The position numbers and the translations under genes were made by a program. Below, piece by piece: positions 17,609 to 34,107 of a DNA stretch of 64,000 nt (position 1 is the stretch's first letter; every line of letters begins with the position of its first letter). The DNA comes from Acidobacteriota bacterium (lineage in GTDB: Bacteria; Acidobacteriota; Terriglobia; Acidiferrales; UBA7541). The DNA lies in contig QHYH01000120.1 of assembly GCA_003223215.1 (NCBI GenBank), positions 1 through 64,000 on the forward strand, in the 5' to 3' direction. The notes beneath the pieces were generated by a model that saw only the letters and a list, made by a program, of their open reading frames with translations, ran no database searches and was not told the origin of the DNA.

Positions 17609-18679
17609 TTATACAGGCGACTGGAAAGACTGGAGCACGCCCCGCAGGTAACCGAGCGCATAAGCCATCCCGGCGTGCCAGGTGGCAGCGCAGGTCATCT
17701 GGGGAGTATGGTCAGGGATGATCACGCCATCAAACCCGTTCGTCTCGTAGATGCGCAGGGCGCGAACTATGTCGACGTCGCCTTCATCGATGAAAACTTC
17801 ATGATATCGAGGCACTTTGCCTTTTACGTTCCGGCAGTGCACATAGGCAATGTTGCCTTGCTTAGAATATTTGTCGATCGCTTCATAAACGTCGCCATCA
17901 CTCATTTCGGCGACTGTGCCTTGGCAGAACTCGAGCGCATTGTAGTGACTCGGATAGATGTCCAGCAGCCGCTGGAAAAGCTGCGGCTGATAAACCATCC
18001 GGGCGGTACCTCTTAATGTGGGCATCGGCGGGTCATCGGGATGGGCCGCGAGTCTGACTCCCGCCTCTTCAGCCACCGGAACGACTTCGGTAAGGAAGTC
18101 GGCCAGACGCTTCCACATCTGTTCGGAAGTCACCGTTCCAATCGTCCCCGGCGGCGCCGCCGCGTCGTATGTCATGTTCCAGAGTTGTCCGCTCGGGATC
18201 GGCGTTTCATCCGGTCCTTCCTTGCCAAGGAAACCAACAGACTCGGCTTCCCCCCGGGCGAAATGGCCTTGCACATGCCCCCAGACTCCTGCAATGCTGA
18301 AGTTGTAGCCGAGAACAGGAATCCCCGCTTTCCCTAGCCGCCGGATGATGGTCTTCAAATCTTCCAGCTGATCGCGCTTGCTGGGCCCGTCGAGCAAAAT
18401 GTCGTACCAATGGGAAGGATCAAGATTCTCTATGGCGGCCAGTTCCAGACCATGCTCGTTGATGGCATTCTTCAAATCCCGCAGTTCTTCGTAGGTCCAA
18501 AGCTTCCCCCGATTGTCGCTGACGCCCCAATTCGTCCTTCCATCTGTTCCGGGAAGTCTGACAGTCCCAGCAAAGTAATTGACCCAGTGAGCGACTATGT
18601 GCGTTGCCCCAGCCTGCCTGGCAAAACGAAAGTTCTCGGGAGTGAGCATATGCCGATAAAGTCCAAGCCCCAATTTCAT
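17609..18679 (-). CDS. uxuA: Mannonate dehydratase (UxuA family), 356 aa
   Basis: TIM-barrel enzyme that dehydrates D-mannonate to 2-keto-3-deoxy-D-gluconate (KDG). Family marks are GHVQGHFARGEA, LAAHPDDPPMPTLRG with the His-Pro-Asp-Asp cluster, NALEFCQGT, VHCRNVKG and IIPDHTPQM, which together give the metal-binding and catalytic residues. The length is shorter than the 394 residues of E. coli UxuA but matches a common shorter type. I start it at the ATG at 18679, preceded by GGAGG; the frame is open 36 codons further up without a signal. It is the last gene of the minus-strand train. The train lacks glucuronate isomerase and mannonate oxidoreductase, so mannonate probably comes from mannose oxidation. 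Confidence 0.9.
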   Translation of the reverse strand: MKLGLGLYRHMLTPENFRFARQAGATHIVAHWVNYFAGTVRLPGTDGRTNWGVSDNRGKLWTYEELRDLKNAINEHGLELAAIENLDPSHWYDILLDGPSKRDQLEDLKTIIRRLGKAGIPVLGYNFSIAGVWGHVQGHFARGEAESVGFLGKEGPDETPIPSGQLWNMTYDAAAPPGTIGTVTSEQMWKRLADFLTEVVPVAEEAGVRLAAHPDDPPMPTLRGTARMVYQPQLFQRLLDIYPSHYNALEFCQGTVAEMSDGDVYEAIDKYSKQGNIAYVHCRNVKGKVPRYHEVFIDEGDVDIVRALRIYETNGFDGVIIPDHTPQMTCAATWHAGMAYALGYLRGVLQSFQSPV

Positions 18680-18918
18680 GGTCAAATCCTCCACAAAACA
18701 AAGGTGTGCTGACAGGAAACGATCTCGAAGGATCCACGTGCGGTGTTCTGGACAGCCTGCCGCCGCCCGCCGTGGGTGCCGCACCACCCAGAATGCCGGC
18801 GACCAAGACGCTTGGGAGGATTGCCGTCATGGCCATCCTCCCAGAAAGGTCTGCAACCTGCGCAAGGGGCGTGCATCGCTCGACGGCCCGCTCCATATCA
18901 CCACCAATCTCTCAAACC
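18680..18918. other. 239-bp gap inside the minus-strand gene train
   Basis: This is the largest gap within the operon-like train, between the RraA-like gene and uxuA. It contains overlapping short frames on both strands with no start sites or recognisable content. It may hold an internal promoter for uxuA, but I see no convincing -35/-10 pair. Confidence 0.3.
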
Positions 18919-19593
18919 TCAAAAGCGCCCGTGTTTCCGATAGGCTTCCACGGGATGAACGCCTTCTAAGATGGCCTTTCGGACTTCGTTTTCCGTGTGC
19001 ACTACTTCTTCCGCGCGCTCGAGGACCTGTGGCATGACCTCTCGGGGAATCACAACCACTCCGTCGTTATCGCCAACAATGAAGTCTCCGCGCCGAATCG
19101 TGACTTCGCCGATGGTAATGGGCCGTCCGTAAGTGATTAGTTTCCATCGACCGGCGATATCCCGAGGCGTTCGATAACGGCAAAAAACCGGAAATCCCAG
19201 CTTCCTTATGTAGTCGGTATCACGAGCGCCGCCATCGATCACAGCTCCCCGGGCACCCCGAAATTGGGCCGCCTCGCTCGATAGCTCGCCGATATGAGCG
19301 CAGATGCCGTCGTTTGGTTGTGACACGATAACGTCACCTGGTTGGAGGTCGCCTAGCATTTGGAGTACTGGAATATAAATCTCCTCCGGGTCCTTGCTTG
19401 AAGTCTGCTGCCCCTCTACGGTCATTGCCGCTCCGGCCACTCTTTGATCCCAGTTGAGGCTCTGGATCGCCGCTGGGAGGCATTGCTTCGAGTAACCCAT
19501 TTCATCCAGAACATCGGCGATGGCTCCGGTGTAGATCAGCGAAAATCGCCGACATGCGTCTTCCACGTTTAAATCGCGGGATTCAGGAGCCAT
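18919..19593 (-). CDS. RraA-family protein, probable HMG/CHA-type class II aldolase, 224 aa
   Basis: RraA-fold protein. The key loop RGARGAVIDGGARDTDYIRK (about residues 119-138) contains the Arg and Asp used for substrate and divalent-metal binding. GDVIVSQPNDGICAHIGEL (about 89-107) is the other conserved block. Family members include 4-hydroxy-4-methyl-2-oxoglutarate/4-carboxy-4-hydroxy-2-oxoadipate aldolases and oxaloacetate decarboxylases; true RraA RNase E regulators are shorter. The ATG at 19593 has GGAGAAA upstream, and the longer frame into the next gene is rejected. In a train with an SDR, a lactonase and mannonate dehydratase, a retro-aldol cleavage of a 2-keto-3-deoxy sugar acid is the likely job. 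That is inference from context. Confidence 0.8.
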   Translation of the reverse strand: MAPESRDLNVEDACRRFSLIYTGAIADVLDEMGYSKQCLPAAIQSLNWDQRVAGAAMTVEGQQTSSKDPEEIYIPVLQMLGDLQPGDVIVSQPNDGICAHIGELSSEAAQFRGARGAVIDGGARDTDYIRKLGFPVFCRYRTPRDIAGRWKLITYGRPITIGEVTIRRGDFIVGDNDGVVVIPREVMPQVLERAEEVVHTENEVRKAILEGVHPVEAYRKHGRF

Positions 19594-19681
19594 TTTTCTC
19601 CGTTGTCGGCCTCTGCGGAACGGAACACATCTTGCGCCTCCGGGTTTCGCTGTGCCTGATTTTGATTCAAGCCTTGGTGAG

Positions 19682-20899
19682 TCATGACTTTTTTGCAAGG
19701 CTTGTTGCAGCAAGCCCAGACGCCCGCACTCGGACGCGGTCGCGGCCACGAGCGTCGCTTAGGAGAATCTCGCTATCCGTCAAGCGCAGCCCTCGTAAAT
19801 GAGCGAAGTCCTCGGGGACAGCCGCTAGGAAGCTGAGATACTGCACGGTGCGCGAACCGCGCGCCGGGACCATCGAAAAATGCCCTGTCCCATATAGCGG
19901 GCCTTGGGCAAAAGCTTCACGGCGGAGTAAAGGAAAGGGAGTTGAGCCAAATTCAATCCCGCGGACCTGGCACCGGCCATTCCAAGGCGGATAGCGTCTC
20001 GCGCGGTTCTCCTCCCAACTGACCGCCCACGGAAAATCGCTACGGTGAAAGCAGTAGCCAAAGAGAAGATTCGCTTCGCGGTTCAGTGCTGCGATATATC
20101 CGATCTCCCGCCTCGGATCGAGCAGAGCCGTTGCCACAAATCCCTTCCCGGAACGGATGAAGGGTTGTGTAAGATCAACGAAGTTTCCTTGCAGATCCGG
20201 GGCACGTGGCCATTTAAAATCGCACGAGGATCGAAGCAGTTCTTTGCCTTCGTAACCATGAGGATAGGTTCTCCCCTTGAGTGCCGGTACGCAAATGCAA
20301 CTCGCCTGGGAGTCGAGGAATGGCGGACCAAGCGTGACATGCTGCGTCCAATGAAAGAAATGATCTGCCTTCCTTTCGTTCTTCACGGTTTCTTCGAAAT
20401 AAGCGACCGACTCCCCTCGCCGGAGAGTGAGTTCGCGTTCGAAGCGAAGTTCTGCCACCGGCAACCGCACTGACAGCTTAAGACTGACCTCTTGCGGGCG
20501 CACCCCAATACGCTCTTTCCGCCATCGAAGACTTGGCGCTTCGCCATGAATCGAGAGTCCCTGCCGGGCTTCCTCCTCCGAAGGCGAGCCAAAAAAGTCC
20601 AAGCACAAATTGTGACCGGTGATACCGGAAAGCGTTCGACCCGTGGCCGGAGACCCATAGCGCGCCGCATGCTGCCCTGGCCGGTAGTGATAAGGCTCAA
20701 TCGTCTTCCACGGCGGCACCCAGAGCGGATTGAGGGTGGATAAGCCCTTGCGCTCGCGGAACCGGAACTCGGCAATGTGCCCGCCCCCGGTTAGAGTGAC
20801 CAAATGGACGAGATCGTTCACGAGCACGAAGGCTTCGCGCCCATGCCATTTCGCTTTGGAACAACCTAGCACTTTTTTCTCGAGCCGCGCGGGGATCAA
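19682..20899 (-). CDS. Aldose 1-epimerase-like (galactose mutarotase fold, DUF4432-like) protein, 405 aa
   Basis: The sequence has the look of a galactose-mutarotase-like beta-sandwich: GGGHIAEFRFRE near residues 38-49, LSIHGEAPSLRW with a candidate catalytic His near 115-126, HFFHWTQHVTLGPPF near 180-194, and FPLLRREAF late in the chain. It has no signal peptide, so it is cytosolic. The likely start is TTG at 20899, 11 bp after the GH38 stop and without its own Shine-Dalgarno site, which implies translational coupling. In this operon it could equilibrate anomers of the released hexose before the dehydrogenase acts. The family also includes uncharacterised non-epimerases, so the reaction is uncertain. 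Confidence 0.62.
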   Translation of the reverse strand: MIPARLEKKVLGCSKAKWHGREAFVLVNDLVHLVTLTGGGHIAEFRFRERKGLSTLNPLWVPPWKTIEPYHYRPGQHAARYGSPATGRTLSGITGHNLCLDFFGSPSEEEARQGLSIHGEAPSLRWRKERIGVRPQEVSLKLSVRLPVAELRFERELTLRRGESVAYFEETVKNERKADHFFHWTQHVTLGPPFLDSQASCICVPALKGRTYPHGYEGKELLRSSCDFKWPRAPDLQGNFVDLTQPFIRSGKGFVATALLDPRREIGYIAALNREANLLFGYCFHRSDFPWAVSWEENRARRYPPWNGRCQVRGIEFGSTPFPLLRREAFAQGPLYGTGHFSMVPARGSRTVQYLSFLAAVPEDFAHLRGLRLTDSEILLSDARGRDRVRVRASGLAATSLAKKS

Positions 20900-20910
20900 G
20901 ACGACGCCAG

Positions 20911-23900
20911 TCAGCGCACGAGGGCCGGAAGGGTAGACGTCCCTTTTACGCGCACCGTAACAATCTGGTGCGGCTTGATGTCAAACTTAAATCCGTGATC
21001 GCCGACCAGCTGAAGTGCCAGCTGGTTTGCCTCCATGGCGTTGCATCTCCATGCGGACTCAACCTTCAACAACGGAATGGTTATTTCCGCTGGCCCGGCT
21101 TCGCCGCCAATTTCGAGGAACCGGAGGATGGTACCCTGATCGTCTTCCGCCTCCTTCCAGGTCAGGAGCAGCACGTTGGGCCGATTCACCTCGAGGAAGC
21201 TGCCCTGCTTGCTGTCCAGCGGACGCGGGAGGTTAATGGCTTTGTCCTGAGATGTAATCCGGTCGGTCTCAAGCGGAGTGCTCTCCTCCCAACCGAGGCG
21301 ACTGAGAGAAGCAGCGTCGAGCTTGCGACCACTGGTAAACACATAACGAAAGACAAAATCCCCGCCTTGGCCGGCTCGATAGTTCGTGTCCCAGTAATTG
21401 TTCATCACGTAAGAGAAGAGCGCCGGCTTGCGCTGGCCGAACTCACGCGGCCAAATTCCGCGAGCAATGTCTCCAAAGGTGACGAGTGAAGCGTCGAGGG
21501 GGAAAATGGCGGCTGCCACGTTGCCATCTTGAGCCGCGGTCCAGTGCTGGACCGAAAACCACTCAAGGCCCGCACCGGGTAGCATGTCCTTGGCAGGGTC
21601 GACGACGCCATTCTGGATTTCATACTCGAACCGCGGATGCTCCATAGCAAGGGGAAAAGCGAAGTATACGGCTTCTTTGCTGAAGGTTTTCTCTTTACGG
21701 ATTTGGTTTATGAATTCGATCTTTTTCTGCGTGTCGAAAAGGATGATCCGAGTTTCGATTCTCGGGGTGTTTACATCAGAGCTCTCCAGTTTTGCTACTG
21801 TTCCAAAGCTTGTGTGGACGACGGAAACGAGCTTTCCTCCGCCCGCAGGCTGTATGTGCAGGTCCGGGACGGGTGAAATGGCTCGATACTGGACCAAGCG
21901 GTTTGGGAGCTCGTCGGCCCCGCTGACATACAGATACTGGCCAAAACGGTAGGGCGATGAGGAGTCGACGATGTCCCGCGCGAGCTCCTTGTCAAAAATG
22001 CTTCGTACCGCGCCGCTCTCGGGGTCCAATGTGACGCGATAGTAGGGGCTTTCGACGACTTCGCCATGCGAGGATGCGTTCTCGGCGGGCTGTCCTTTTA
22101 CCATCCTTAATTCATAAGCCTTGTAGCCAACGGCTGGAACGTCCACGGCGAGGAAACGGACACGGCTGTATAACTTGAAGTCCGAGACCGTCTCATACTG
22201 GACAACCTCCTGGGTCTTCTGATCGACGATTTCCCACCCGTGATCCAAATCGAAGTCTACAAAGCTGCTACGTGTCCAGTTGAGGCCGTTAAATACGAGA
22301 AGCGTATTGGGCGGATCACTAACGAAATCAGCGATCACCCCGAGGCTGCGTTCGACGATGTCGTTGACCAAGGCATGCGCGCGGACCGCGAAGGCGTCTT
22401 TCACGGCCAGCTGTTCCACTGACTCCTGGCTCTCGGGTGCGGTGATGCTGCGTGAGTCTCCCCAGGTGTGTTCGTCCATCAGCACCATTTCCTTCCACAA
22501 GTCGTCGAGCTTGCCGCGGTCAAGCAGGAACTTTGGATTGACCAGCGTGCTGACCGTGGAAAGTTTTTCCGCAGACAGCGCCCGGGCCTCGTTTGCCCTT
22601 TCAAGCGCCGCATAAGCGGCATCAGCAGCAATTCCGTCTTCCCAATAGGGGCCCCCATCTCCCCGGTAAGTTGGGATCGCGTCCCCCGCTTCTTTTGCGA
22701 TCTCGCCTATTGCCTTGGAAAAGTCTGAGAACTCCAGCTTGGGATATGTGTAGATTTTGTTCCAGGCGGAGACAATTTCCGCTTGCTGCGGAAAGAGATC
22801 GGTGTTCTCCACTTGCGTTCCGTAGAGAAGAACGGAGTGGGGCTTGTAGGAAGGAGAACCGTAGATCTGCAAAAATATGGGCAGAGCGTCATGACCCGCC
22901 GCCACTTGAGGGGGCATTCCAAACAGCGTCAGCATCTGGTGATAGTGGCGGGAATACCACATCAGCACCCTGCCGCCATCAGGCCCTTCCCACCAGAAGG
23001 GCGACTTTTCGTGCAGATGTCCCAGCAGGAGCATAGGGCCGCGGTAATTATCGCTGGCTGCAATGAAATACTTCAGCCCCGCTTCTGACAGAACTGAAGC
23101 GTATGACCAAGAGTAAGAAGGTACGTCGGTGATATTCGCATACTCCCATGGGCCGCCGTGTTTTTGATTGAAAGCGTAGCCCCAATAGAGAGAGCGAAGC
23201 AGCGTCTCCGCCGTCGGAAAGCCGGTGAGCAGGCTTGCGTACTGTGACGGAATATGGATTTTGCCGTCCTGAACCATGCGGTACAGCTTTTCCCTGTCGG
23301 CTTGGCTGCGACTGTGAAGAAATTGCTCTGCTTCCCATGCGCCGTCTAAACTGAACTCGAAACCAGGGTACTTCTCGGCAAGGGGTGCGATTTCATCGAT
23401 CCCGCGGCTGTGAACCTCCGCTACTTTGGCCTGAAAGTCGGTATAGCCGACGTCGAGATGCTCGTGGGGGACGACGAAGACGGTCCATTTCTTGCCGGGA
23501 ACAATTCGTTCTGTAAAGCGACGAGTCCTACCGTTGAGATGCACCGAGACCGTTGTTTCGCAGGAGCTCTCGAAGGCCGGGACGGAAAATTCCACTCGTT
23601 GTTCTCCGAAGGCCCGGTCGGCGGTCAAAGGTTGGCGAAACACGTCTCCGTTCAGCAAAAGCTCAACACTGCCACGCTCGGGCTTCTCGTGAAAACCGAC
23701 AAATACGTCGATGAGCTCCCGGAGCTTGCCGTCTTCCATGCGATAGAAAATGGTGGGAACGATCTGCGACCGTACGGCCGAGGCTTCATATCCTCCGGTA
23801 CCTACGTGGTCAAGCTCCAGAGCGTCGTAAACGAGCCCGGAGTCTCCGATCGGCACTCCCTCCGAATTTGTTTCGTCTCCCGGTGAAGGCTCATCCACGG

Positions 23901-24444
23901 CCGTAAATTCCAATTGATTGCTCCCTTGGCGCAAAAAGGAGGCGGGGAAGTCAAACGTTATCGTGTCAGTTGAATACTCCGGGAAAAATGCCCCATAGAC
24001 GTCGCCCATCGCGTAATCAAGCTTCGGGTGCTGGTAGAAACGCCCTGCGTGTCCATTGACGTCCACCTGGAGGGCAGAAATACGCGGGTGCTCCACGAGC
24101 AGCGCAATCTTCATTTCATAAAGACCAACGGGCTGATCCCGCAGTTCAAACTGCACGCGAACAGGATGGCTTCGGCTTCCCGCCCCACCGTTTGCCGAAC
24201 CGGGCTGAAAAGCGTACCAATCCTTGCTAGGCTGGCTTTTGCCGATCACAAAGGCGGGTGCTCGCGCCGGCGGTTGGCCCTCATGGAATTCCGCCGATGA
24301 TCCGTCAAAGCTGCCGATGCGCCATACCGTCTCGACATTTGGTTCGTCACTGGGCCGCGCGGCTTCAGAAGGTCTTGCCGACACGCATAGTCCAAGCGCC
24401 AGCAGAGACGCCAACCATTGGTTGTGGACTTTTCCTCCTTTCAT
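20911..24444 (-). CDS. Secreted GH38-like alpha-mannosidase, 1177 aa
   Basis: After a signal peptide (about 1-29) comes a beta-sandwich region of about 290 residues, partly resembling the rhamnogalacturonan-lyase domain III/CBM-like fold. The GH38 catalytic barrel starts at VVPHEHLDVGYTD, where His327, His329 and Asp331 are zinc ligands. The probable nucleophile is Asp440 in NITDVPSYSWSYASVL. FWWEGPDGGRVLMWYSRHYH and LMDEHTWGDSRS mark the end of the catalytic and middle domains, and the C-terminal all-beta domains complete the enzyme. GH38 enzymes remove alpha-mannose residues. The start has AAAGGAGG immediately upstream. It lies 33 bp after the SDR gene and is coupled to the mutarotase-like gene, linking mannose release to its oxidation. 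Confidence 0.88.
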   Translation of the reverse strand: MKGGKVHNQWLASLLALGLCVSARPSEAARPSDEPNVETVWRIGSFDGSSAEFHEGQPPARAPAFVIGKSQPSKDWYAFQPGSANGGAGSRSHPVRVQFELRDQPVGLYEMKIALLVEHPRISALQVDVNGHAGRFYQHPKLDYAMGDVYGAFFPEYSTDTITFDFPASFLRQGSNQLEFTAVDEPSPGDETNSEGVPIGDSGLVYDALELDHVGTGGYEASAVRSQIVPTIFYRMEDGKLRELIDVFVGFHEKPERGSVELLLNGDVFRQPLTADRAFGEQRVEFSVPAFESSCETTVSVHLNGRTRRFTERIVPGKKWTVFVVPHEHLDVGYTDFQAKVAEVHSRGIDEIAPLAEKYPGFEFSLDGAWEAEQFLHSRSQADREKLYRMVQDGKIHIPSQYASLLTGFPTAETLLRSLYWGYAFNQKHGGPWEYANITDVPSYSWSYASVLSEAGLKYFIAASDNYRGPMLLLGHLHEKSPFWWEGPDGGRVLMWYSRHYHQMLTLFGMPPQVAAGHDALPIFLQIYGSPSYKPHSVLLYGTQVENTDLFPQQAEIVSAWNKIYTYPKLEFSDFSKAIGEIAKEAGDAIPTYRGDGGPYWEDGIAADAAYAALERANEARALSAEKLSTVSTLVNPKFLLDRGKLDDLWKEMVLMDEHTWGDSRSITAPESQESVEQLAVKDAFAVRAHALVNDIVERSLGVIADFVSDPPNTLLVFNGLNWTRSSFVDFDLDHGWEIVDQKTQEVVQYETVSDFKLYSRVRFLAVDVPAVGYKAYELRMVKGQPAENASSHGEVVESPYYRVTLDPESGAVRSIFDKELARDIVDSSSPYRFGQYLYVSGADELPNRLVQYRAISPVPDLHIQPAGGGKLVSVVHTSFGTVAKLESSDVNTPRIETRIILFDTQKKIEFINQIRKEKTFSKEAVYFAFPLAMEHPRFEYEIQNGVVDPAKDMLPGAGLEWFSVQHWTAAQDGNVAAAIFPLDASLVTFGDIARGIWPREFGQRKPALFSYVMNNYWDTNYRAGQGGDFVFRYVFTSGRKLDAASLSRLGWEESTPLETDRITSQDKAINLPRPLDSKQGSFLEVNRPNVLLLTWKEAEDDQGTILRFLEIGGEAGPAEITIPLLKVESAWRCNAMEANQLALQLVGDHGFKFDIKPHQIVTVRVKGTSTLPALVR

Positions 24445-24477
24445 CTCCCCTCCTTTGAACGATAGTTCGATTCAGCT

Positions 24478-25299
24478 TCAGTGGGAGCCTGGCACCCTTG
24501 TGGTGCCGGTTCCCGACTCTTGAAAGATCGTGCCGCCCACGGGGACCGATAATCCTCCGTCCACCATAACGGCCGATCCCGTCACAAAAGAGGCTAGGTC
24601 ACTTGCCAGGAACACAATGACTCGGGCGACTTCTTCGGGCTTTCCCATGCGACCAAGCAGATGCAGCTGATTGCAGGCTTCAAGCACGCGGTCGGGATGA
24701 GCATCGAGACTGGCGGCCCAGCGCAGCATCGGGGTGTCAATCGCGCCCGGCAAGACGCAGTTAGCGCGTATATTTTGCTTGGCATAGTCAAGCGCAATGC
24801 TTCGGACCAAGCCCAGCAAACCATGCTTGCTTACAACGTAATGGACTGAATTGCGCTGGGCCGCGACCGACTGTGCCGAGCCGGTAACCACAATGGCCCC
24901 GCCTCCCCGCCGGATCATCTCGGGAATGGCGTGCTTCGACATGAGGAAAGCACTCTTCAAATTAATGTTCAGAACTTCATCCCATTCCGCCTCGCTTGCG
25001 CTCGTCGCGGTTCCGTAACGCTGAATGCCGGCGTTGCTGACTAGAACGTCCAGCCCTCCGAATTCGGCGACAATTTGGGGTATAAGCCGTTGTACTTCGC
25101 TCCCCTTGCTGACATCCGCGGAAAACAAAACCGCCTTCCGACCGCGTCCCTGAACCTCAGTAACTGTCGTTTCGCCCAGCTTCCGGTCTCGATCCACGAC
25201 AGCTACAGCTGCATTGCGCTCCGCGAATTCCCGCACGCAAGCTTGGCCGATTCCGGAGGCTCCACCCGTTATGACGACAACCTTGCCTTCGAAATTCAT
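24478..25299 (-). CDS. SDR-family dehydrogenase, candidate aldose dehydrogenase, 273 aa
   Basis: Classical short-chain dehydrogenase: TGGASGIGQA at residues 11-20 is the NAD(P)-binding glycine motif. VVDRDRK follows strand 2, where the Asp favours NAD. NAGIQ is near 91, the catalytic Ser lies in VTGSAQS, and YVVSK supplies Tyr and Lys. PGAIDTPM matches the usual PG segment. The terminal residues (FQESGTGTTRVPGSH) are an unusual tail. In an operon with a lactonase and mannonate dehydratase it is best read as a hexose (mannose) 1-dehydrogenase making an aldonolactone. SDR sequences alone do not prove substrate. Confidence 0.85.
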   Translation of the reverse strand: MNFEGKVVVITGGASGIGQACVREFAERNAAVAVVDRDRKLGETTVTEVQGRGRKAVLFSADVSKGSEVQRLIPQIVAEFGGLDVLVSNAGIQRYGTATSASEAEWDEVLNINLKSAFLMSKHAIPEMIRRGGGAIVVTGSAQSVAAQRNSVHYVVSKHGLLGLVRSIALDYAKQNIRANCVLPGAIDTPMLRWAASLDAHPDRVLEACNQLHLLGRMGKPEEVARVIVFLASDLASFVTGSAVMVDGGLSVPVGGTIFQESGTGTTRVPGSH

Positions 25300-26275: not shown

Positions 26276-27850
26276 TTATTCCTCGGAACTGCCATGTTTA
26301 GGCTGCAGCCTTCGGAAGAGCTCGAATTCTTTTTCTGCTTCGGCGGCCTGATTCAAACGGGCCAGCAGACCTCCAAGCAGAAAATGAAATCGGTAATTTT
26401 GCGGATCGAGCTGCACGAGTTTCTCCAGAGTTTCCCGCGCCCCGTTCAGCTTGCCGTCGCGAATCTGGAGCCGCGCATAATATTCATTGGCCGAAATGTT
26501 GCGAGGATCGTGGGCGAGTGCGCTTCTGATCAGCGCCGAGGCATCCTGGGGGTTGCCTGCTTCGAGGGCATAACGCCCGAGCTGAGCCTCTGCTTCGGCG
26601 TTTTTCGGATCGAGACGAAGGACTTCGGCTAGCGCCGCTCTGGCATTTTCGGTTTGCGCCATATCCCCATAAGCCCGGGCAAGCGATAAACGGGCGCTTA
26701 GGCGTCTTGGATCGAATCGGAGGCACTCCTTGTAGGCCTTCACGGCATCCTGCAGTCGATTTTGGCTCGCAAGGAGGTCGCCCGTTGCCTCGCGAAGGGC
26801 AGGGTCAGACGGATGAACGCTAAGCGCTAAAGTCAGCACAGAGTTGGCCCGCTCGAAGTTCCCGTCGTGCATCAATTCTTCGGCCAGCGCATAGGAGATA
26901 TCGGTGCGGCCTGGGGCCTTACCCTTGGCCTCATTCATCCAATCGGCTGCTGCCTGGTGCCGGCCGATCGCTGATTCAGCGAGCCCGATGCGGAAGTAAG
27001 GCTCGGGGTTCGCTGGGTCGTCCCGGATCGCGGCGCTATATGCGGCGTGCGCTTGGTCGAAACGTCCTAGCTTGGAGTAGGCCATGCCTAGATTAATGTT
27101 CGCCGCCCCGTCTCGTTCGACAGGTGGAATGGCCTCAAACTGTCCCGCGGCCAAGTGGTATTCGCCATGCTCAGCTAGAAGCAGGCCTAGAGAAAAATGA
27201 GTCTTCGAGTCCACACCCGGGAGACTTGCAAGTTGGATTGCCGTCTGTTTTGCTTGGTTTGCTTTTCCTGCGCCGTAGTAAGCCTCTGTTAATTCGAACA
27301 GTTCAAGCGGATCTTGCGACCGCTGGAACGCTCCAGCATCAAAGTAGAAAACTGCGCGCTGGTACTGTTTCTTCCGAAGATAAAAGCTGCCCAGGTTCAG
27401 GCAAGCCGTGGGATTTCCCGGATCGAGCTCCAGCACTTTTTCAAACTCCGCAATGCCAATCGTTTGCTTCCCCGACCGGATGTAACTTGCCGCAAGGTTA
27501 TTGCGAAAGCGAGTATCGTGGGGATCTAGCCGAATCGCACGGCCGAAGGCAGCCTGCGCTTCGTTGTGATGTCCGTCGCCGTCGTAAGCAAGTCCCAACC
27601 TGTTCCACAGCTCGGGCACATCCGGACAGCTGCCCACGGCTTCAGCCAGGAGTTGCTGAGCCTCGCTGGAGCCGTGTTGAGCCAGGAGCTGCTTTCCTTT
27701 TTCGAGTGCCGCCGTGCAATCCGCGTTTCTAGATGCCCCCTCTGACGGAAAGCCTTGACCAGCCACGCCCAGAACCGCGGTGGTGAGGCCAAACATAAAG
27801 ACAAAGATGCCGGCGGCGGCTCTCAGCACCGCTCCAACTCCGTCCATCAC
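26276..27850 (-). CDS. Exported TPR-repeat protein, 524 aa
   Basis: An N-terminal hydrophobic segment (AAAGIFVFMFGLTTAVLGVAG, here split around residues 10-31) is a probable signal peptide or membrane anchor. From about residue 55 to the end the chain is tandem TPR helices: repeated patterns include LGLAYDGDGHHNEAQAAFGR, LGSFYLRKKQYQRAVFYFDA and LARAYGDMAQTENARAALAE, with about a dozen repeats. The GTG at 27850 is followed by ATG at 27847. The GAGG site overlaps the stop of the upstream TPR gene, so the two are translationally coupled. Sitting between an Oar-like receptor and glycan enzymes, it may act as a periplasmic scaffold or glycan-handling partner. No binding function can be read directly. 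Confidence 0.85.
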   Translation of the reverse strand: MMDGVGAVLRAAAGIFVFMFGLTTAVLGVAGQGFPSEGASRNADCTAALEKGKQLLAQHGSSEAQQLLAEAVGSCPDVPELWNRLGLAYDGDGHHNEAQAAFGRAIRLDPHDTRFRNNLAASYIRSGKQTIGIAEFEKVLELDPGNPTACLNLGSFYLRKKQYQRAVFYFDAGAFQRSQDPLELFELTEAYYGAGKANQAKQTAIQLASLPGVDSKTHFSLGLLLAEHGEYHLAAGQFEAIPPVERDGAANINLGMAYSKLGRFDQAHAAYSAAIRDDPANPEPYFRIGLAESAIGRHQAAADWMNEAKGKAPGRTDISYALAEELMHDGNFERANSVLTLALSVHPSDPALREATGDLLASQNRLQDAVKAYKECLRFDPRRLSARLSLARAYGDMAQTENARAALAEVLRLDPKNAEAEAQLGRYALEAGNPQDASALIRSALAHDPRNISANEYYARLQIRDGKLNGARETLEKLVQLDPQNYRFHFLLGGLLARLNQAAEAEKEFELFRRLQPKHGSSEE

Positions 27851-27856
27851 GCAACC

Positions 27857-29632
27857 TCAGCGATTACCTGTCGAAACAACCACGAGAGTTTCCGTTAGAG
27901 AGTCCTTAGCAAATTGCTGCAGATCTCGGTCGCCCTGCTCCTGAACCTGGGCGAACAATGCGTCGGCTTTGGCTCTTTCGCCCTTCCGCTGATATGCCCG
28001 CGCCAGCAAGTAAGCGATGGAACTCGAGTTCGGATCGATGGACCGCGCATGCTCAAGATCAACGAGCGCCGTCTTGGCGTCCCCTCGGGCGAGTTCCAGT
28101 TTCGCCCGATCCACATACGCGTGGGCGAAGTTTGGCTCGAGTGAAACTGCTGTGTTAATCGACTCCAGCGCTTCCTGGAACTCCGAGCTTTCTGGAGCTG
28201 CGCCCTTTTGAATCAGACTTTCCGTCAGGAAGTAATAGCAGCGCGGGTCTTTAGGCCCATGGACGGCAGCCTTCCTGAATGATTGAATAGCGCCATTCAG
28301 GTTCCCTTCTTCCAGTTCGGAGATGCCCATCGCCAGATAACCTCCGTAATCTTCCGGCGCCATCTCGATGGCACGCTGATAGTCCCGCTTCGCTTCGTCA
28401 AAGCGCGCTGCGAGCGTATAGGCGATTCCCCGGCTTAGGAACAATTCGTGAGCTTGCGGGATTCTCGCAATGCCTTCTGTAAGCATTTCCGCCGCAAGCT
28501 TGTAGTTCAAGTGCTGGCTCGCCAGCGTGGCAATGTTGAGGTAGTTCCGTGGGTTTGTCGGATTTTGGAGGATGCCTTCCCGGAAGGCTTCATACGCCTC
28601 CTGCGTCTGTCCGCCCTTCTCTTCGGCAACACCCAGCAGGCTGTAAAGCTCGGGCTCGGTTCCCCCCGTCGCAAGAACCGGTTTGAGCGTCTGGATGCAC
28701 TTTTGATAGTCCCGCTCGTTGAAGTAGGCCAAGGCCAAGCCGTAGTTGCGCCGGAACCGGTCGGGGTAATCGGTCGGCAGTTTGTTGAACTCTTGGATAG
28801 CCTCTTTCGAAAGCTTGGCCTGCCCGAGCATCCACGCCAACTTAAAGCGCATGTCATTTGTAAGGTCGGGCCGCCCCACAAGGTCTTTCAGAGTTTCCGC
28901 GGCCCGTGCGATGTCCCGAGTGTTTAGCTGTGCTTCGGCGCCCATAAGCGCTAGGCTTGGATCGGCAGCCATCTCCGCGGGAATGCGAGAAAAATAGGCG
29001 AGCGCCGCTGGATAGCTTTTTCGTTCCAATTCATATTGTCCAAGAATTGAATTAACCGGGCCGTCGTCGGGATGCAAGACGATCAACGGCTCGAGCTCCC
29101 CTGCGGCGTCCTGCTTTCGACCCTTGCTCCAATAAAGAATGCCCAGCTCCCGGCGCGCCAGCCAGTAGCTCGGGTCGACGGCAAGCGCCCTCTTTAGGGT
29201 ATCTATGGCTTCATCGGACCTACCCATCAAAGCCAACGCAATGCCTTCGCCGCTCAAAGCGTCGGGGTTAAGAGGGCTCTGCTTCTCGAGGAGGCGAAAC
29301 TCGGCGAGAGCTTCACCGTAGCGCTTTTCATGAAGCAGCAGCATTCCTTGCTGAATCACCGTATCTGCCTGTTGGCGTGACGAAACTTCTTTCTCGTCCC
29401 GTTTCTGATTCGTCGTTTGCGCTTGAGGCTGGGAGGGCGCGATGAGCGTGATGGAAACCACAAAAGGGATGTGACACAGACGCAAGACAGCTGCTCTTCG
29501 TCGAGCACGCCCACGTTTGGATCCGGTCATTCTCACAAAGCAACGCCATGCGGCAAAAGACTTCAGCATATCCGGAGCTCCAAACTTATCGTGGCGCAGA
29601 GCGACAGGAAGAATCTCGAACATGCGAAGCAC
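27857..29632 (-). CDS. Exported TPR-repeat protein, up to 591 aa
   Basis: A second TPR solenoid of about 14 repeats (for example LGILYWSKGRKQDAAGELEP, LGVAEEKGGQTQEAYEAFRE, VDRAKLELARGDAKTALVDL). The best signal peptide begins at the internal ATG at 29530 (MTGSKRGRARRRAAVLRLC, then a hydrophobic core and PQAQ). The listed GTG at 29632 and an ATG at 29569 with GGAG upstream are alternatives, so the N-terminus is uncertain by up to 34 residues. The gene follows the TonB-dependent receptor by 84 bp and overlaps the control region of the next TPR gene. The pair of adjacent TPR genes directly after a receptor is the arrangement discussed in the findings. Confidence 0.85.
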   Translation of the reverse strand: MLRMFEILPVALRHDKFGAPDMLKSFAAWRCFVRMTGSKRGRARRRAAVLRLCHIPFVVSITLIAPSQPQAQTTNQKRDEKEVSSRQQADTVIQQGMLLLHEKRYGEALAEFRLLEKQSPLNPDALSGEGIALALMGRSDEAIDTLKRALAVDPSYWLARRELGILYWSKGRKQDAAGELEPLIVLHPDDGPVNSILGQYELERKSYPAALAYFSRIPAEMAADPSLALMGAEAQLNTRDIARAAETLKDLVGRPDLTNDMRFKLAWMLGQAKLSKEAIQEFNKLPTDYPDRFRRNYGLALAYFNERDYQKCIQTLKPVLATGGTEPELYSLLGVAEEKGGQTQEAYEAFREGILQNPTNPRNYLNIATLASQHLNYKLAAEMLTEGIARIPQAHELFLSRGIAYTLAARFDEAKRDYQRAIEMAPEDYGGYLAMGISELEEGNLNGAIQSFRKAAVHGPKDPRCYYFLTESLIQKGAAPESSEFQEALESINTAVSLEPNFAHAYVDRAKLELARGDAKTALVDLEHARSIDPNSSSIAYLLARAYQRKGERAKADALFAQVQEQGDRDLQQFAKDSLTETLVVVSTGNR

Positions 29633-29715: not shown

Positions 29716-32700
29716 CTACCAGAGAAGTTTCAGCGAGAACTGAATCTCCCGCGCCGATGCGGCGCTGAAAATCTCCATAAATCCGGGAGAACCGACCCCG
29801 GTCCTCGATTCACCACCCAAGGTGCTGAAGCCTCCGCTGGCACCTCCGCCCGGAGGGGCAAAATTTACGTTGTTGAGGACGTTGAAGAACTCCGAGCGGA
29901 ACTGGAAGGATTTCGACTCTGCAAACTTGAAGCTCTTAAACAGGGCAAAATCCAGGTTTTGCAGCTTGGGGCCCCGAAGCGTGTTGCGCCCGAGCGTCCC
30001 GAATGTGAAAGGCGCGGGAAGCGTGAAAGCCGCTGGGTTGTACCAGGCGTGTGGACCTTGCTGGAATCCAGGAGGCAGAAGCGGGACGCCGGAAACCGGA
30101 TTGGCCCGCTGCGTTTCGCTTGATGGATTAATGTTGGCATTATCAAACGGGACGGTAACCGTAAACGGCTGACCGCTTTCGAGCGTCAGAATGCCGCTGA
30201 TCTGCCAGCCTCCGATGAGCAAATCGCCTGCCCGCCCGACGTTGCCCCCAAGGGGCATGCCTTTGCCGAAAGGAAGCGCATATGCATAACTGAAAACAAA
30301 GATATGCGGAATATTGAAATCGCAAGCGCCGTAATCCGCCTTGACGTTGTAAGGGTTTTGAATACTGCCAGACTGTCCTTCGTCCTGAATGGACAGGCAA
30401 CGAGACCAGGTGTAGGAACCGAGAAGTGTGAGGTTGTGCGAAAGCCGCTGCTCTAGTTTAGCCTGAAGGGCATTGTAGTTGCCCACTCCAGAATTGAAAT
30501 CTGCCGGAAACTGACCAAAGAAGGGAAACGGTGTACGAGGAGCAACGGGACCGGGCCCCATCTTGCTCGGGAGCGGCGCATTGTACATCGGTTGAATGAA
30601 AAGATGCCGGCTCTCTGACCCGACGTAGTTTACCGTCGCTGTCAAATTCGGCGTTATCGCGTGCTGAACGCCGAAATTGTACTCCATGGCGTAAGGAATC
30701 CTCAGGCGCGGGTCCGCACCGAACGCGATGGCGGGAGTAGGGTTGGCCGGCGGCAGAAATGAGCTTGCTGGGGGAAGCGCGTTCCAGAACAACGATGGCA
30801 CCGCGCGGTTCAGGCCCCCCTCGGAAATCCCTGCGCCGAACGGCCAGGCAATGCGGGGATCCTGGGATTCCTGAACAAGGGTGTTGTTATGGTCTGTGAA
30901 CATGGCGAAGGCTCCACGGACCACCGTTCGCGGCCGAGCCGAATATGCGAAACCAAACCGTGGCTGCCATCCATCGTACTTGGGATCGAAATAGGTTTTC
31001 CTCACGTTCGGGAAGGGCCAGGACGGAGGATTGGGATTCGACGCCGTGGGCGGCTGGACAAAGGGAACCGGTATCAGGAAACAGGACTGTATGACTTGAT
31101 TGATGTCCGATTGGGTTTGCAGGCTTCCGTCCGGGGGAATGGGGCACTCTGGATTCCAGCCCGAAACCTGGTCATTCTTGTAGTGTGCGGGCGGAACGAA
31201 ATCGTAGCGAAGACCAATCTGGATGTTCAGCTTTTTGCTGGCCTGCCATTTATCTTGGATGTAATAACCTTGCCAAGTGGTTCGGTCGTCCGCTGCCGTG
31301 TTACCGACGAAGCCGAAAAGGCTGGATGGCGTGTTCAGCAGCATGCTGGCGAGACCGTCCCCGGTTTGCGAGGCGTTCAGACTGTTTCCGTAAGTCGCGC
31401 TGCTCGGGAACTGATCAAACCCCACCGATGCTCCCCAACCGTCATCGAAACTGTGAATATGATAGAACATGAAGCCGGCACTGAACGTGTTCGACCCGCG
31501 AATTTTCTGAAAGTCAGCGCTGACTTCGTGGGACCGGATGGGACCGAGTGGGATCGCGAACTGGCCGGTTCCGCCAAGGCGTGGAGCCAGGCTGATTTGG
31601 GGAACGATCGGAATGCCGTCCCGCACGGGCTCAAACGCTGCCGTGTTGGTAGCCGCTAACAGGTCTGGGCCACCTGGAATGTTCGTGGTGCCGAAAATCG
31701 TCTGCGTGTAACCGTAATGAAAGGACCCCAGGAGCGTAGGGGTGAACAGATGAGTGTAACCCAAGCCAACGACGCGGGCGTGGTTCTTCGAAGTGTTCGC
31801 GCCGGTTAGCAGCGAGGTCGCAAAAGTCTCATTCGGCTGGGTGTAATAGAAGGTTCCGTAGAGCGTGTCATTGTTTGAAAAGGTATGGTCTATTCGGACG
31901 CCGAATTGATCACTCGAGATAACCTGAGCGCTCGAAGTGGCTAGGTTAGGAAAACTATTCCCGCCCGGGCCGAAATTGGGTAAGGGATAGAAGGCCTTGA
32001 GGTAGGCAAGAGCCTGAGCGTTCAGCATGGCGGCCGGAATCGTATTTCCCGGAAAGGGTTCGCGAACAAAACCGCTCGTTTGCGCCGGCAGGCCGGTCAC
32101 AGGGTCAACAGTGCCCGCCGTTACCATTCGCGTCGTATAAGGGTTGTAGATTTGCCCCACGAATACGGGTCGGCCCAAAGGGTCGACAATGGGCTGGTTG
32201 GTCGTAGGATCAACGGCCTGCTGGGTCGTCAGCAAGCCTGAGAAATCTCCGCCCAGCTCACCGGCCGTTGGCACGTTGTTGAAGAGAGTGAACCCTTTGC
32301 TCGATCGGAAGCCCTCCCAGTATCCAGAGAAATACGTTTTCGAATCGCGCCCGTTATACAGACCCCAGGGCGTCGGCAAAATCACTGGCCCTCCAACGGT
32401 GAGGCCGTACTGGTTCTGGCGGAAGGCGGGTTTCTTTTGCTTTGCGAAATTGTCAAAAAAGTTCGCCGCATCCAACTTGTCATTTCGCAGGAACTCCCAG
32501 AGGTCGCCGTGAATTTCATTGCTCCCCGATTTGGTGACTACGTTGACGTTGGCGCCAGACGAGATGCTGAACTGCGCGTCTGTCATTTGCGACTGTACGT
32601 TAAATTCCTGAATGGCGTCGGGAGGCGGGCTGATGGCCCAGGTGTTGTCAAAGATGGCGTTGTTGAGAACCCCGTCCAGAGTGAAGTTGTTTTGCTGGCC

Positions 32701-33294
32701 ACGCTGACCATTCACTGACGGGCTGATTCCGCCGCCGCCAATGGGAATCACGAAGAACGATTGCTGGCCGCTTTCCTTGGGAGTAGCGCCAGGAGTCAGC
32801 AGCACCAGTTGAGTGAACTGCCGCCCGTTCAGCGGAAGATCAACCACTTGCTTGGAACCGATCACCTGATCCAATGTCGCATTGGCCGTTTCAAGCGCTG
32901 GGGGAGCAGACGTAACCTCGACGTGCTGTGTTACTGCACCCACATTTAGCGTGTAATCTGCCTCCACGTCTTGGTTAACGAGGAGTTCGACGCGCGACTG
33001 TAACACCTTCGCGAAGCCTGTTTTCGAAACGGTCACGGAGTACTGGCCCGGAGGTAGTTGCGTGATGGTGTAAAACCCTGCCTGGTTGGCGCTGGCGTTC
33101 CGCGTCAGGCCGGTAGCTAAATTGGTCACCTCCACGGTTGCCCCAGGGACTACGGCGCCAGTGGAATCAATCACCGTCCCGTGAAAGGCGCCGTTCACAG
33201 TCTGCGCCTGGGCAAGTTGTTGCGGCAGGCTTCCCCATGCCGCCGTCGAAAGGACCAGAGAGAGTATCGTTGTCCTCCTTTTCTTCGATGACAT
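29716..33294 (-). CDS. Oar-like TonB-dependent outer-membrane receptor, 1192 aa
   Basis: The signal peptide (residues 1-31, ending QQLAQAQ) is followed by a carboxypeptidase-regulatory-like domain (FHGTVIDSTGAVVPGATVEV). The plug then has VDLPLNGRQFTQLVLLTPGA and NFTLDGVLNNAIFD. The barrel ends in FSLKLLW with a terminal Trp. I start it at the ATG at 33294, which has AGGAGGA in front; an open frame reaches 33321. It is 51 bp downstream of the GntR regulator and heads the catabolic train that includes GH38. The most economical reading is that it imports a mannose-containing oligosaccharide, although GH38 is itself exported. It belongs to the same family as the receptors at 2150 and 49757 but is diverged, so it is not a recent duplicate. 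Confidence 0.9.
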   Translation of the reverse strand: MSSKKRRTTILSLVLSTAAWGSLPQQLAQAQTVNGAFHGTVIDSTGAVVPGATVEVTNLATGLTRNASANQAGFYTITQLPPGQYSVTVSKTGFAKVLQSRVELLVNQDVEADYTLNVGAVTQHVEVTSAPPALETANATLDQVIGSKQVVDLPLNGRQFTQLVLLTPGATPKESGQQSFFVIPIGGGGISPSVNGQRGQQNNFTLDGVLNNAIFDNTWAISPPPDAIQEFNVQSQMTDAQFSISSGANVNVVTKSGSNEIHGDLWEFLRNDKLDAANFFDNFAKQKKPAFRQNQYGLTVGGPVILPTPWGLYNGRDSKTYFSGYWEGFRSSKGFTLFNNVPTAGELGGDFSGLLTTQQAVDPTTNQPIVDPLGRPVFVGQIYNPYTTRMVTAGTVDPVTGLPAQTSGFVREPFPGNTIPAAMLNAQALAYLKAFYPLPNFGPGGNSFPNLATSSAQVISSDQFGVRIDHTFSNNDTLYGTFYYTQPNETFATSLLTGANTSKNHARVVGLGYTHLFTPTLLGSFHYGYTQTIFGTTNIPGGPDLLAATNTAAFEPVRDGIPIVPQISLAPRLGGTGQFAIPLGPIRSHEVSADFQKIRGSNTFSAGFMFYHIHSFDDGWGASVGFDQFPSSATYGNSLNASQTGDGLASMLLNTPSSLFGFVGNTAADDRTTWQGYYIQDKWQASKKLNIQIGLRYDFVPPAHYKNDQVSGWNPECPIPPDGSLQTQSDINQVIQSCFLIPVPFVQPPTASNPNPPSWPFPNVRKTYFDPKYDGWQPRFGFAYSARPRTVVRGAFAMFTDHNNTLVQESQDPRIAWPFGAGISEGGLNRAVPSLFWNALPPASSFLPPANPTPAIAFGADPRLRIPYAMEYNFGVQHAITPNLTATVNYVGSESRHLFIQPMYNAPLPSKMGPGPVAPRTPFPFFGQFPADFNSGVGNYNALQAKLEQRLSHNLTLLGSYTWSRCLSIQDEGQSGSIQNPYNVKADYGACDFNIPHIFVFSYAYALPFGKGMPLGGNVGRAGDLLIGGWQISGILTLESGQPFTVTVPFDNANINPSSETQRANPVSGVPLLPPGFQQGPHAWYNPAAFTLPAPFTFGTLGRNTLRGPKLQNLDFALFKSFKFAESKSFQFRSEFFNVLNNVNFAPPGGGASGGFSTLGGESRTGVGSPGFMEIFSAASAREIQFSLKLLW

Positions 33295-33345
33295 GGCTCC
33301 TCCTGTAAACCAACGATTCACGACGCGAGAAGAGAAATGAGAAAG

Positions 33346-34107
33346 TCATTCTGGCGCTGCTACGTTTTCTCTAATTTGCCGCCAGAAATCGCGGGTCATT
33401 TCCTCCAGGAATTCCCGGCAAGCCGACGGCTCGGCAGTTTTCACTTTGTTGATAATTTCGCGATGCTGGTGAGCGATAGCCGGCAAGTTAAGCCGAGTGT
33501 GGCGAAACGATCGGATCAGAACGTAGGCAAACTGCGGGGTGGCCACGGCACGCAAGGCCTTTTCCACGCACCGATTTCCGGACATCCGCCACAGCGTTTC
33601 GTGGAACTCCAAATCGCTCCTGGAGAATGCCCAGAAGTCGCCTGCTTCAGCGCCGGCTTTCATCCCATCCCAGGCCTGTTCGAGGCTCTCAAGATCCTCG
33701 CCATTGGGCCTGCCAGCTTCGCGCGCCAGCTGTACGGCTAAACCCTCAAGCTCCATCCTGAAACGGTAGATTTGATTGATGTCCTCTAGCGAGTAGTCCG
33801 TTATAAACGTGCCTTTGTTGGGAACCCGAACAACGAATCCCTGGAACTCCAACTCTTGCAGTGCTTCGCGGACAACGTTTTGTGCGACTTGCATCTGTCT
33901 GCTGAGCAAGGTTTCGGTCAGTCTCTGGCCCGGCAAAAGATTGCCGCGCAAAATCGCTTCTCGAAGTCTCGTCAGAACCATCTCCCGAAGGCTGACGGGG
34001 GTGATCGGCTGGAATTCAACTTTTTCCTTCGTTGTCGCGCTGCTGGCCGGATTATCGATCATTGGTAATCGCCCGGCAGTATGGATCGAGGCAGCTGCGG
34101 GTTGCAT
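33346..34107 (-). CDS. GntR-family regulator with FCD domain, 253 aa
   Basis: FadR-subfamily regulator. The winged HTH (about residues 38-105) reads LREMVLTRLREAILRGNLLP then GQRLTETLLSRQM and VREALQELEFQGFVVRVPNK. The C-terminal FCD all-helical domain (about 112-245) contains the metal-site pattern with Asp and several His (DLEFHETLWRMSGN and IAHQHREIINKV), which usually binds a sugar acid or carboxylate. The ATG at 34107 has GGAGA upstream. It is the first gene of the minus-strand train and divergent from the Crp/Fnr gene. UxuR/ExuR/GntR-type members commonly sense aldonates or uronates, so mannonate or KDG is a reasonable ligand guess. Confidence 0.9.
   Translation of the reverse strand: MQPAAASIHTAGRLPMIDNPASSATTKEKVEFQPITPVSLREMVLTRLREAILRGNLLPGQRLTETLLSRQMQVAQNVVREALQELEFQGFVVRVPNKGTFITDYSLEDINQIYRFRMELEGLAVQLAREAGRPNGEDLESLEQAWDGMKAGAEAGDFWAFSRSDLEFHETLWRMSGNRCVEKALRAVATPQFAYVLIRSFRHTRLNLPAIAHQHREIINKVKTAEPSACREFLEEMTRDFWRQIRENVAAPE

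Follow-up and report, generated by a model that had tools for sequence, protein, structure and literature searches.

A putative non-phosphorylative aldose oxidation module beside a GH38 alpha-mannosidase-family gene in an acidobacterial genome

What becomes of the sugar that a bacterial alpha-mannosidase releases? In textbooks, bacterial mannose is phosphorylated and isomerized, and a gene train in the genome of an Acidobacteriota bacterium (GenBank assembly GCA_003223215.1; 8.8 Mb, 97.65% complete) raises the question of whether an oxidative route may serve it. The window that we analyzed is a stretch of 64,000 nucleotides (positions 1 to 64,000 of contig QHYH01000120.1, labeled C219 in our analysis), and the train consists of ten open reading frames (ORFs) on its minus strand (17609-34107), with spacings of -68 to 131 bases between adjacent ORFs as listed. 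An earlier note on this DNA had read the train as a full chain in which mannose from alpha-mannosides is oxidized to mannonate, dehydrated to 2-keto-3-deoxygluconate (KDG), and cleaved to pyruvate and glyceraldehyde. From the comparisons reported here, we consider it reasonably likely that the train handles uptake and catabolism within an alpha-mannoside utilization locus that carries a recurring non-phosphorylative aldose module. D-mannose, or a close derivative, would be the leading candidate for the oxidized substrate, at slightly below an even chance.

Gene content of the train and the proposed pathway

The ORF list and Pfam scores bear out the ten consecutive minus-strand genes and the families that the earlier note had named. 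The train starts with a GntR/FCD transcriptional regulator (33346..34107, 253 aa; FCD 67 bits, GntR 53 bits) and a TonB-dependent receptor that we take to be Oar-type (29716..33321, 1201 aa; CarboxypepD_reg 73.8 bits, OMP_b-brl_4 679 bits), followed by two proteins with matches to Pfam TPR families (27857..29632, 591 aa; 26276..27850, 524 aa). Next come an SMP-30/gluconolactonase-family protein, the proposed lactonase (25409..26254, 281 aa; SGL 88.7 bits, cut-off 26.3), and an SDR dehydrogenase, the proposed aldose 1-dehydrogenase (24478..25299, 273 aa; adh_short_C2 225 bits). These are followed by a GH38 alpha-mannosidase-family protein with an N-terminal PF14683 domain (20911..24444, 1177 aa), a mutarotase-fold protein (19682..20899, 405 aa), an RraA-like protein, the proposed C-C lyase (18919..19593; 113 bits, cut-off 24.5), and a UxuA-like TIM barrel, the proposed aldonate dehydratase (17609..18679; 179 bits, cut-off 23.7). 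Putative start codons of the last two were placed from sequence and homolog lengths at 19593, within an ORF that runs to 19749, and at 18679 (MKLGLG).

Gene content, family membership, metal-site residues, and recurrence in other phyla can be read from the sequences, and from these we infer every reaction and cellular location of the following scheme. The receptor would import glycan fragments, and the GH38 enzyme would release alpha-linked mannose or a manno-configured sugar. In the cytoplasm, the mutarotase-fold protein would equilibrate an aldose, the SDR would oxidize it to a lactone, and the SMP-30 protein would open the lactone; the UxuA-like enzyme would then dehydrate the acid to a 2-keto-3-deoxy acid, which the RraA-like protein would probably cleave to pyruvate and an aldehyde.

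On the uptake side, the receptor shares 41% identity with the receptor preceding GH38 in another acidobacterial genome (G107), and the first TPR protein has a 30% match across 342 residues near the same GH38 gene, while no match to the second was found in the compared loci at thresholds of E 1e-12 and 30% of length. A Pfam scan of 23 genes of the window gave no match to SusD, the receptor being accompanied by the TPR proteins instead, and for want of a SusD partner the train would not be classed as a SusC/SusD-type polysaccharide utilization locus. TPR proteins with Oar-type receptors may be the acidobacterial counterpart of SusC/SusD.

The GH38 protein matched the Pfam N, C, and C2 domains at 68.9, 37, and 46.3 bits (cut-offs 25, 25, and 22). 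Its metal-site residues align with those of structure 7ufs (HEHLD, ITD, DEH) at the sites that we take to be the His-x-Asp pair, the catalytic nucleophile Asp, and a late His, and the nearest solved GH38 proteins match at only about 26 bits. It probably cuts alpha-linked mannose from glycans. By eye, its N-terminus has a signal-peptide-like start, and relatives of 40-48% identity occur in four acidobacterial genomes (G107, G330, G267, and G188).

Among the enzymes proposed to act on the released sugar, the SDR narrowly passed the broad NCBIfam subfamily model NF005559 (“glucose 1-dehydrogenase”; 216.2 vs 215 bits) and scored under the cut-offs of NF005007 (“aldose dehydrogenase”; 245.2 vs 341 bits) and NF053807 (L-rhamnose 1-dehydrogenase; 188.9 vs 400 bits), as read from the best 25 of 236 NCBIfam matches. 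The SMP-30 protein passed no NCBIfam cut-off. The mutarotase-like label of the earlier note is supported by the predicted fold, which is closest to galactose mutarotases (3mwx, E 1.7e-11) in a low-confidence model (pLDDT 61, pTM 0.73), but not by Pfam, where DUF4432 scored 21.7 bits against a cut-off of 32.5. Relatives of this protein were found in acidobacterial genomes G267 (48-49%) and G292 (41-42%), both with loci that hold SGL and SDR genes.

Enzymes of the UxuA family are known to act on D-mannonate and belong classically to hexuronate catabolism. The predicted fold of the UxuA-like protein (pLDDT 88) is closest to mannonate dehydratases (3ban, TM 0.75, 24% identity), with sugar 3-epimerases ranking second and a 2-hydroxy-3-keto-glucal hydratase further down. 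Residues H212, C251, H280, and H323, which we take to be the metal ligands and catalytic His of UxuA, are invariant across the 20 rows of one alignment (A3), and in another (A1) C251 is lost in a single row, which is the second PF03786 protein of the host genome.

Recurrence of the gene set in other genomes

Loci around UxuA-like relatives were compared for the best 80 of 128 relatives from a contig scan, each as a stretch of at most 21 kb. Genes were counted by tblastn on the DNA (E 1e-10, chosen queries), which together with a codon-usage caller replaced a longest-ORF gene calling that had lost several UxuA genes. By their record titles, the 80 loci belong to Chloroflexota including Thermomicrobia (22), Acidobacteriota (17), Bacteroidota (16), Verrucomicrobiota (11), Bacillota (5), and others (9). 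SDR genes were found in 48 of them, RraA-like genes in 28, lactonase genes in 21 (7 SGL and 14 PF10282-type), GH38 in 16, enolase-superfamily genes in 14, mutarotase-like genes in 13, CaiB-type genes in 10, 2-keto-3-deoxy-6-phosphogluconate (KDPG) aldolase genes in 9, KDG kinase genes in 6, and FAH genes in none.

The conserved co-occurrence that the earlier note had proposed to look for was found: 11 loci hold SDR, lactonase, and RraA-like genes with the UxuA-like gene, and all 11 (10 Bacteroidota and Paenibacillus aceris) also carry GH38. An unrelated PF10282 lactonase takes the place of the SMP-30 protein in these loci. The P. aceris locus (L052) repeats the set of the window, with GH38, FCD, RraA-like, UxuA-like, SDR, lactonase, and mutarotase-like genes, its lactonase being assigned to the PF10282 type by likeness to a protein of Maribacter aquimaris locus L092 that has the Pfam match. 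Across the 70 loci of at least 11 kb, RraA-like genes were associated with GH38 (12 with both, 14 with RraA only, 3 with GH38 only, 41 with neither; Fisher p 0.0002), an association that is confounded by kinship because 13 of the 16 GH38 loci are Bacteroidota. None of six control PF03786 loci, a small set that came entirely from the host genome or its class, held GH38, RraA, or lactonase genes. On a tree of UxuA-like proteins (83 rows, bootstrap not settled), the GH38-linked rows did not form one group; three changes were counted, at least two of them forced by starred branches, with 49 ungrouped rows left out of the counts and the G107 row labeled GH38 by hand, and the GH38 link thus had more than one origin or underwent loss.

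Placement of GH38 was also followed within seven flavobacterial genomes, whose contigs were matched by coordinates, with length used for two of them. The locus accounts for every GH38 match of Maribacter polysiphoniae (2/2), M. aquimaris (2/2), and Aureibaculum luteum (3/3), for three of the four in Pseudozobellia (the fourth is 6.7 kb off), and for one of two in each of the genomes of loci L074 and L075; the four of Arenibacter are at the locus edge (one), 8 kb out (one), and about 60-70 kb out (two). GH92, GH76-family, and MGH1-like genes at the M. aquimaris locus and two GH92 genes in Pseudozobellia point to alpha-mannan as the likely food of these two. One Pseudozobellia GH92 protein (L159:2532-5765) shares its N-terminal PF14683 domain with the GH38 protein of the window.

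Seven Chloroflexota/Thermomicrobia loci (L039, L049, L053, L064, L065, L067, and L070) combine mutarotase-like, SGL, and SDR genes, with 45-49% (SDR) and 38-44% (SGL) identity to the window; a ribose-type ABC gene is present in six of the seven, an enolase-superfamily gene in four, and an RraA-like gene in none. Within Acidobacteriota, we scanned 297 genomes, scoring at most two GH38 and eight SGL candidates per genome, and found a GH38 relative (E 1e-40) in 37 and an SGL relative (E 1e-30) in 3, host genome included. Besides the host, one of these genomes, G267, has the two close together. One strand of G267 carries genes for an esterase, a mannose-6-phosphate-isomerase-like (PMI-like) protein, a ROK kinase, a RhaT-type transporter, a mutarotase-like protein, an SDR (57% to the window), GH38 (45%), a mandelate-racemase-type (MR/MLE) dehydratase, and SGL (49%), the run being interrupted by a gap of about 0.75 kb ahead of the SDR. 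Glucarate-dehydratase-related proteins (3vc5) are the closest matches to this dehydratase, which passes no NCBIfam cut-off; G267 also has a divergent FAH-family gene, nearest to 2,4-didehydro-3-deoxy-L-rhamnonate hydrolase (239 bits, cut-off 500), with an FCD regulator. No match for RraA, KDPG aldolase, the KDG kinase query, or UxaC was found in G267. In G292 (locus L144), SGL (39%), mutarotase-like, SDR (33%), and another MR/MLE dehydratase gene sit a few genes after a GH38 gene (24% to that of the window) and a receptor.

Related SDR, lactonase, and mutarotase-like genes thus occur with either a UxuA-like or an MR/MLE enzyme, and this replacement beside related partners supports, by inference, the assignment of the UxuA-like protein as a dehydratase. 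As unrelated proteins stand in at both the lactonase and the dehydratase steps in other loci, the chain is strengthened and would be a sound functional reading for an aldose.

Some further genes recur at these loci. Solute-binding-like, enoyl-CoA hydratase-family, and CaiB-type CoA transferase genes lie near the SDR and UxuA-like genes in flavobacterial loci L092 (5752-9953), L074, L075, L084, and L103, while L105 lacks the CaiB-type gene there and L088 and L102 lack all three; CaiB-type genes also stand beside SDR and SGL in L039 and L049. They hint at a possible CoA step in sugar acid use. In Arenibacter palladensis (L103:6893-8716), an enoyl-CoA hydratase-like and a PF10282-type lactonase sequence form one 607-residue ORF, either a fusion or a sequencing error. 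A small protein of about 140 residues (L092:1824-2240, cluster C9) has no Pfam family and counts 18 members in 12 loci, adjoining RraA or SDR in the flavobacterial loci inspected.

The wider locus and competing explanations

To the left of the train lie further genes, of which a ROK kinase, a PMI-like gene, a sugar porter, and a glucose-6-phosphate isomerase (GPI) homolog had gone unmentioned in the earlier note. The ROK-family sugar kinase (10342..11286, minus strand; PF00480, 158 bits) has relatives in G267 (63%) and G107 (55%), each at most about 15 kb from GH38. The PMI-like protein (7127..8875, minus strand, 582 aa) matched the ManA structure 1qwr over residues 230-456 (E 4e-11) and had no Pfam or NCBIfam match. 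Relatives of it lie near GH38 in G267 (68%), G107 (51%), Pseudozobellia locus L159 (37%), and L102 (29%), and another at 61% directly adjoins the UxuA-like gene of a Verrucomicrobia locus without GH38 (L077). The sugar-porter MFS transporter (5638..7278, minus strand; Sugar_tr 384 bits) exceeded the cut-off of TIGR00879 at 363 bits, and the GPI homolog is of the cupin type. A putative esterase (16294..17202, plus strand; PF00756) has a 58% relative in G267 that adjoins the PMI-like gene there, and a DUF4185 protein (15103..16266, plus strand; Pfam) has a 40% match on the same G267 contig. A second DUF4185/DUF5005-like protein lies at 13676-15091; for this protein and the GPI homolog no match was found in the compared loci. 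Also present are a DeoR-family regulator (9441..10298, plus strand; Pfam; 52% in G107) and a second Oar-type receptor (2150..5338, minus strand; Pfam; 39% to the receptor in the G267 locus). Between the ROK kinase and DUF4185 genes, a 748-residue ORF (11300-13546) matched neither Pfam nor NCBIfam models, and the compared loci yielded no relative of it. Elsewhere in the window (49562-56687), genes for a TPR protein and an FG-GAP/ASPIC-UnbV protein come after a third Oar-type receptor, and relatives of the FG-GAP/ASPIC-UnbV protein occur near GH38 or UxuA-like genes in loci L142, L081, and L087.

Several observations weigh against reading the train as an oxidative mannose module. The UxuA-like protein scored under both NCBIfam mannonate dehydratase cut-offs (145.9 vs 191 and 103.7 vs 199.6 bits), which is why we name it UxuA-like rather than ManD. 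Aligned with the second PF03786 protein of the host, its family shows two gaps of six columns each beyond the PDH motif, in the region to which we assign the catalytic Tyr of true ManD (Tyr325 of S. suis), and the family seems to lack that stretch. The partners found elsewhere are only family-level matches to those of the window (RraA 33-38%; SDR 32-38% in Flavobacteria and Paenibacillus; GH38 20-29%), and the nearest UxuA relatives (L026, L027, and L028; 74-75%) have no GH38, RraA, or SDR gene nearby. GH38 occurs in only 3 of the 64 loci outside Bacteroidota, and three Paenibacillus genomes hold 8, 14, and 5 GH38 matches, so that the link between GH38 and the locus is weaker in this genus. 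The host genome may also offer other means of handling KDG: on contig C190, a KDPG aldolase gene adjoins a KDG-kinase-like gene that shares 61% identity with an acidobacterial homolog, and three DHDPS-family matches occur in the genome. RraA-like and KDPG aldolase genes occur together in 8 of the 28 RraA loci, 6 of them with KDG kinase as well. Finally, the train has genes for a ROK kinase, a PMI-like protein, and a sugar porter as neighbors. Relatives of the kinase and the PMI-like protein lie close to GH38 in G267 and G107 as well, and mannose may thus be phosphorylated and another sugar oxidized.

This last point leads to a strong rival, since kinase and isomerase-like genes share regions with the set in the window, G267, G107, and Pseudozobellia: two sugars could take two routes, the ROK kinase and PMI-like protein handling the D-mannose released by GH38 and the SDR-lactonase-dehydratase-lyase set burning a partner sugar such as a 6-deoxyhexose. 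The GPI-like gene and sugar porter next to the train would suit such a division, as would the RhaT-type transporter in the G267 run and the resemblance of its FAH-family protein to a hydrolase of the L-rhamnonate route. In the G107 region, PMI-like, GH38, and ROK genes are found together with a UxuA-SDR-RraA set, and in Pseudozobellia PMI-like, ROK, and two GH92 genes lie within about 30 kb of the set. Planctomycete mannose has likewise been routed, by prediction, through ROK kinases and PMI (PMC5673643). However, PMI-like genes occurred in just 2 and ROK genes in 1 of the 80 loci, within stretches of at most 21 kb. D-mannonate, the established substrate of the UxuA family, fits mannose, and two routes for the same sugar may coexist in a cell. 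We regard this division of labor as a serious possibility that falls well short of even. The claim of exclusive mannose oxidation was dropped in view of the ROK and PMI-like genes near GH38 in other genomes. What stands of the chain in the earlier note is a dehydrogenase, a lactonase, a dehydratase, and a possible lyase beside GH38, with D-mannose as the substrate weakened by the nearby ROK and PMI-like genes.

At the end of the chain, the RraA-like protein has the family and the Arg-Asp motif (kept in all 13 aligned sequences) of RraA-type HMG/CHA pyruvate aldolases, and it scored under the NCBIfam cut-offs for ligK (80.1 vs 304.5 bits) and PRK09262 (85.7 vs 179 bits). Whether it is the cleaving enzyme appears evenly balanced, a retro-aldolase role being weakened by the loci that RraA-like genes share with KDPG aldolase. 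That another enzyme is the C-C lyase is a tentative but substantial alternative. The absence of a KDG kinase, as claimed in the earlier note, holds for the train but not for the genome, and the idea that RraA replaces all KDG cleavage was dropped on account of the kinase and aldolase genes on C190 (a second KDPG aldolase match in the host genome has an internal stop). The C190 pair, however, sits among genes of its own kind, with an amidohydrolase and an enolase-superfamily gene (28.8% identical to a query sequence) recognized by computation and FucP-like and UxaA-like genes by eye. The eight loci with both RraA-like and KDPG aldolase genes are all Acidobacteriota and form one group on the UxuA tree, whereas neither KDPG aldolase nor KDG kinase was found in any of the 16 GH38 loci, 13 of which hold RraA. 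To our knowledge, no report describes KDG aldolase activity in the RraA family, papers naming other RraA reactions. One such enzyme, FlDet, is described as a KDGR dehydratase/decarboxylase (PMC8563752), which, with the shared KDPG aldolase loci, weakens RraA as KDG aldolase and leaves it as a possible C-C lyase beside GH38. Service in hexuronate catabolism, the classical setting of UxuA and one of the refuting cases named in the earlier note, is very unlikely: the SDR and lactonase would have no place in it, the train holds no uronate enzyme, and the reported absence of UxaC extends to the whole assembly, with 0 matches in a search that was positive in 7 of 14 control genomes. Four UxuA-like relatives do stand beside MFS proteins nearest to a galactonate transporter model (233-267 bits, under its cut-off of 395), and UxaC was found away from the locus in 6 of 8 genomes searched (G107 and five carriers of the set). 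Least probable of all, the RraA/UxuA pair could form an aromatic-type branch, with hydration by the UxuA-like enzyme and aldol cleavage of the 4-hydroxy-4-methyl-2-oxoglutarate type by RraA, as proposed for Paenibacillus sp. B2, in which the genes adjoin each other and 5,5'-dehydrodivanillate (DDVA) strongly raises uxuA (PMC12673573). According to a figure legend of that paper, the later steps are not yet demonstrated, and the neighbors in the window and in the Paenibacillus loci inspected are SDR, mutarotase-like, lactonase (L052), or GH38 (L044, L052) genes.

The non-phosphorylative aldose module at an alpha-mannoside locus hence remains our preferred reading. Its furthest extension would be a widespread bacterial oxidation of D-mannose from alpha-mannans that bypasses phosphorylation. 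Such a route would have been put together repeatedly from exchangeable parts, the lactonase being SMP-30 or PF10282, the dehydratase UxuA-like or of the mandelate-racemase type, and the end enzyme RraA-like or FAH-type, with the RraA-like protein acting as a KDG aldolase, and we consider this unlikely.

Relation to known systems

Among the papers listed in our literature searches, judged mostly by titles and abstract openings, we found no bacterial report of such a module linked to GH38. The description of the combination as unusual in the earlier note holds in part; some of its pieces are in print, with RraA beside uxuA in Paenibacillus sp. B2 (PMC12673573) and two manD genes with RraA near the beta-mannanases of Natronoglomus mannanivorans (PMC10963439). 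The haloarchaeal route resembles our proposal in that mannan enzymes stand beside manD and RraA and mannose is proposed to be oxidized, dehydrated by ManD, and fed into an Entner-Doudoroff route. It differs in belonging to Archaea, in acting on beta-mannan through GH5, GH26, and GH2, and in ending with KDG kinase and KDPG aldolase, and it is described there as a prediction only. A cell-free mannose-to-lactate cascade names a mannonate dehydratase, mannonolactone, and the term “non-phosphorylative” (PMC6901390), but is an engineered enzyme mix and not a natural gene set. The Paenibacillus sp. B2 pair comprises the same two families in adjacent genes, but is read as part of lignin-related DDVA degradation, and the comparison is at the level of families. 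FlDet of Flavobacterium sp. UMI-01 (PMC8563752), likewise compared at the family level, is an RraA-like protein that is encoded beside a polysaccharide lyase gene and has a 2-keto-3-deoxy sugar acid as its substrate. It is, however, a dehydratase/decarboxylase on KDGR from alginate rather than an aldolase. GH38 and GH92 enzymes are expected to remove alpha-mannose at xanthan and alpha-mannan loci (PMC12827396, PMC9213526), although the main texts of both papers lack the word “dehydratase” and that of PMC12827396 also lacks “aldolase” and “short-chain.”

If true, a dehydrogenase-lactonase-dehydratase-RraA set that recurs with alpha-mannosidase genes in soil and marine bacteria would give a major sugar of fungi and algae an oxidative fate and would supply functions for genes annotated as “mannonate dehydratase” and “RraA family.” The proposed module could be checked with a few purified proteins.

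Close parallels in logic are the non-phosphorylative oxidation of L-rhamnose and L-fucose and that of galactose (De Ley-Doudoroff), in which an SDR, an SMP-30-type lactonase, a dehydratase, and a pyruvate-forming cleavage follow one another. The dehydratases of these known routes belong to the enolase superfamily or the IlvD type and their end enzymes are different ones, whereas in the window a UxuA-like and an RraA-like protein would fill the two positions.

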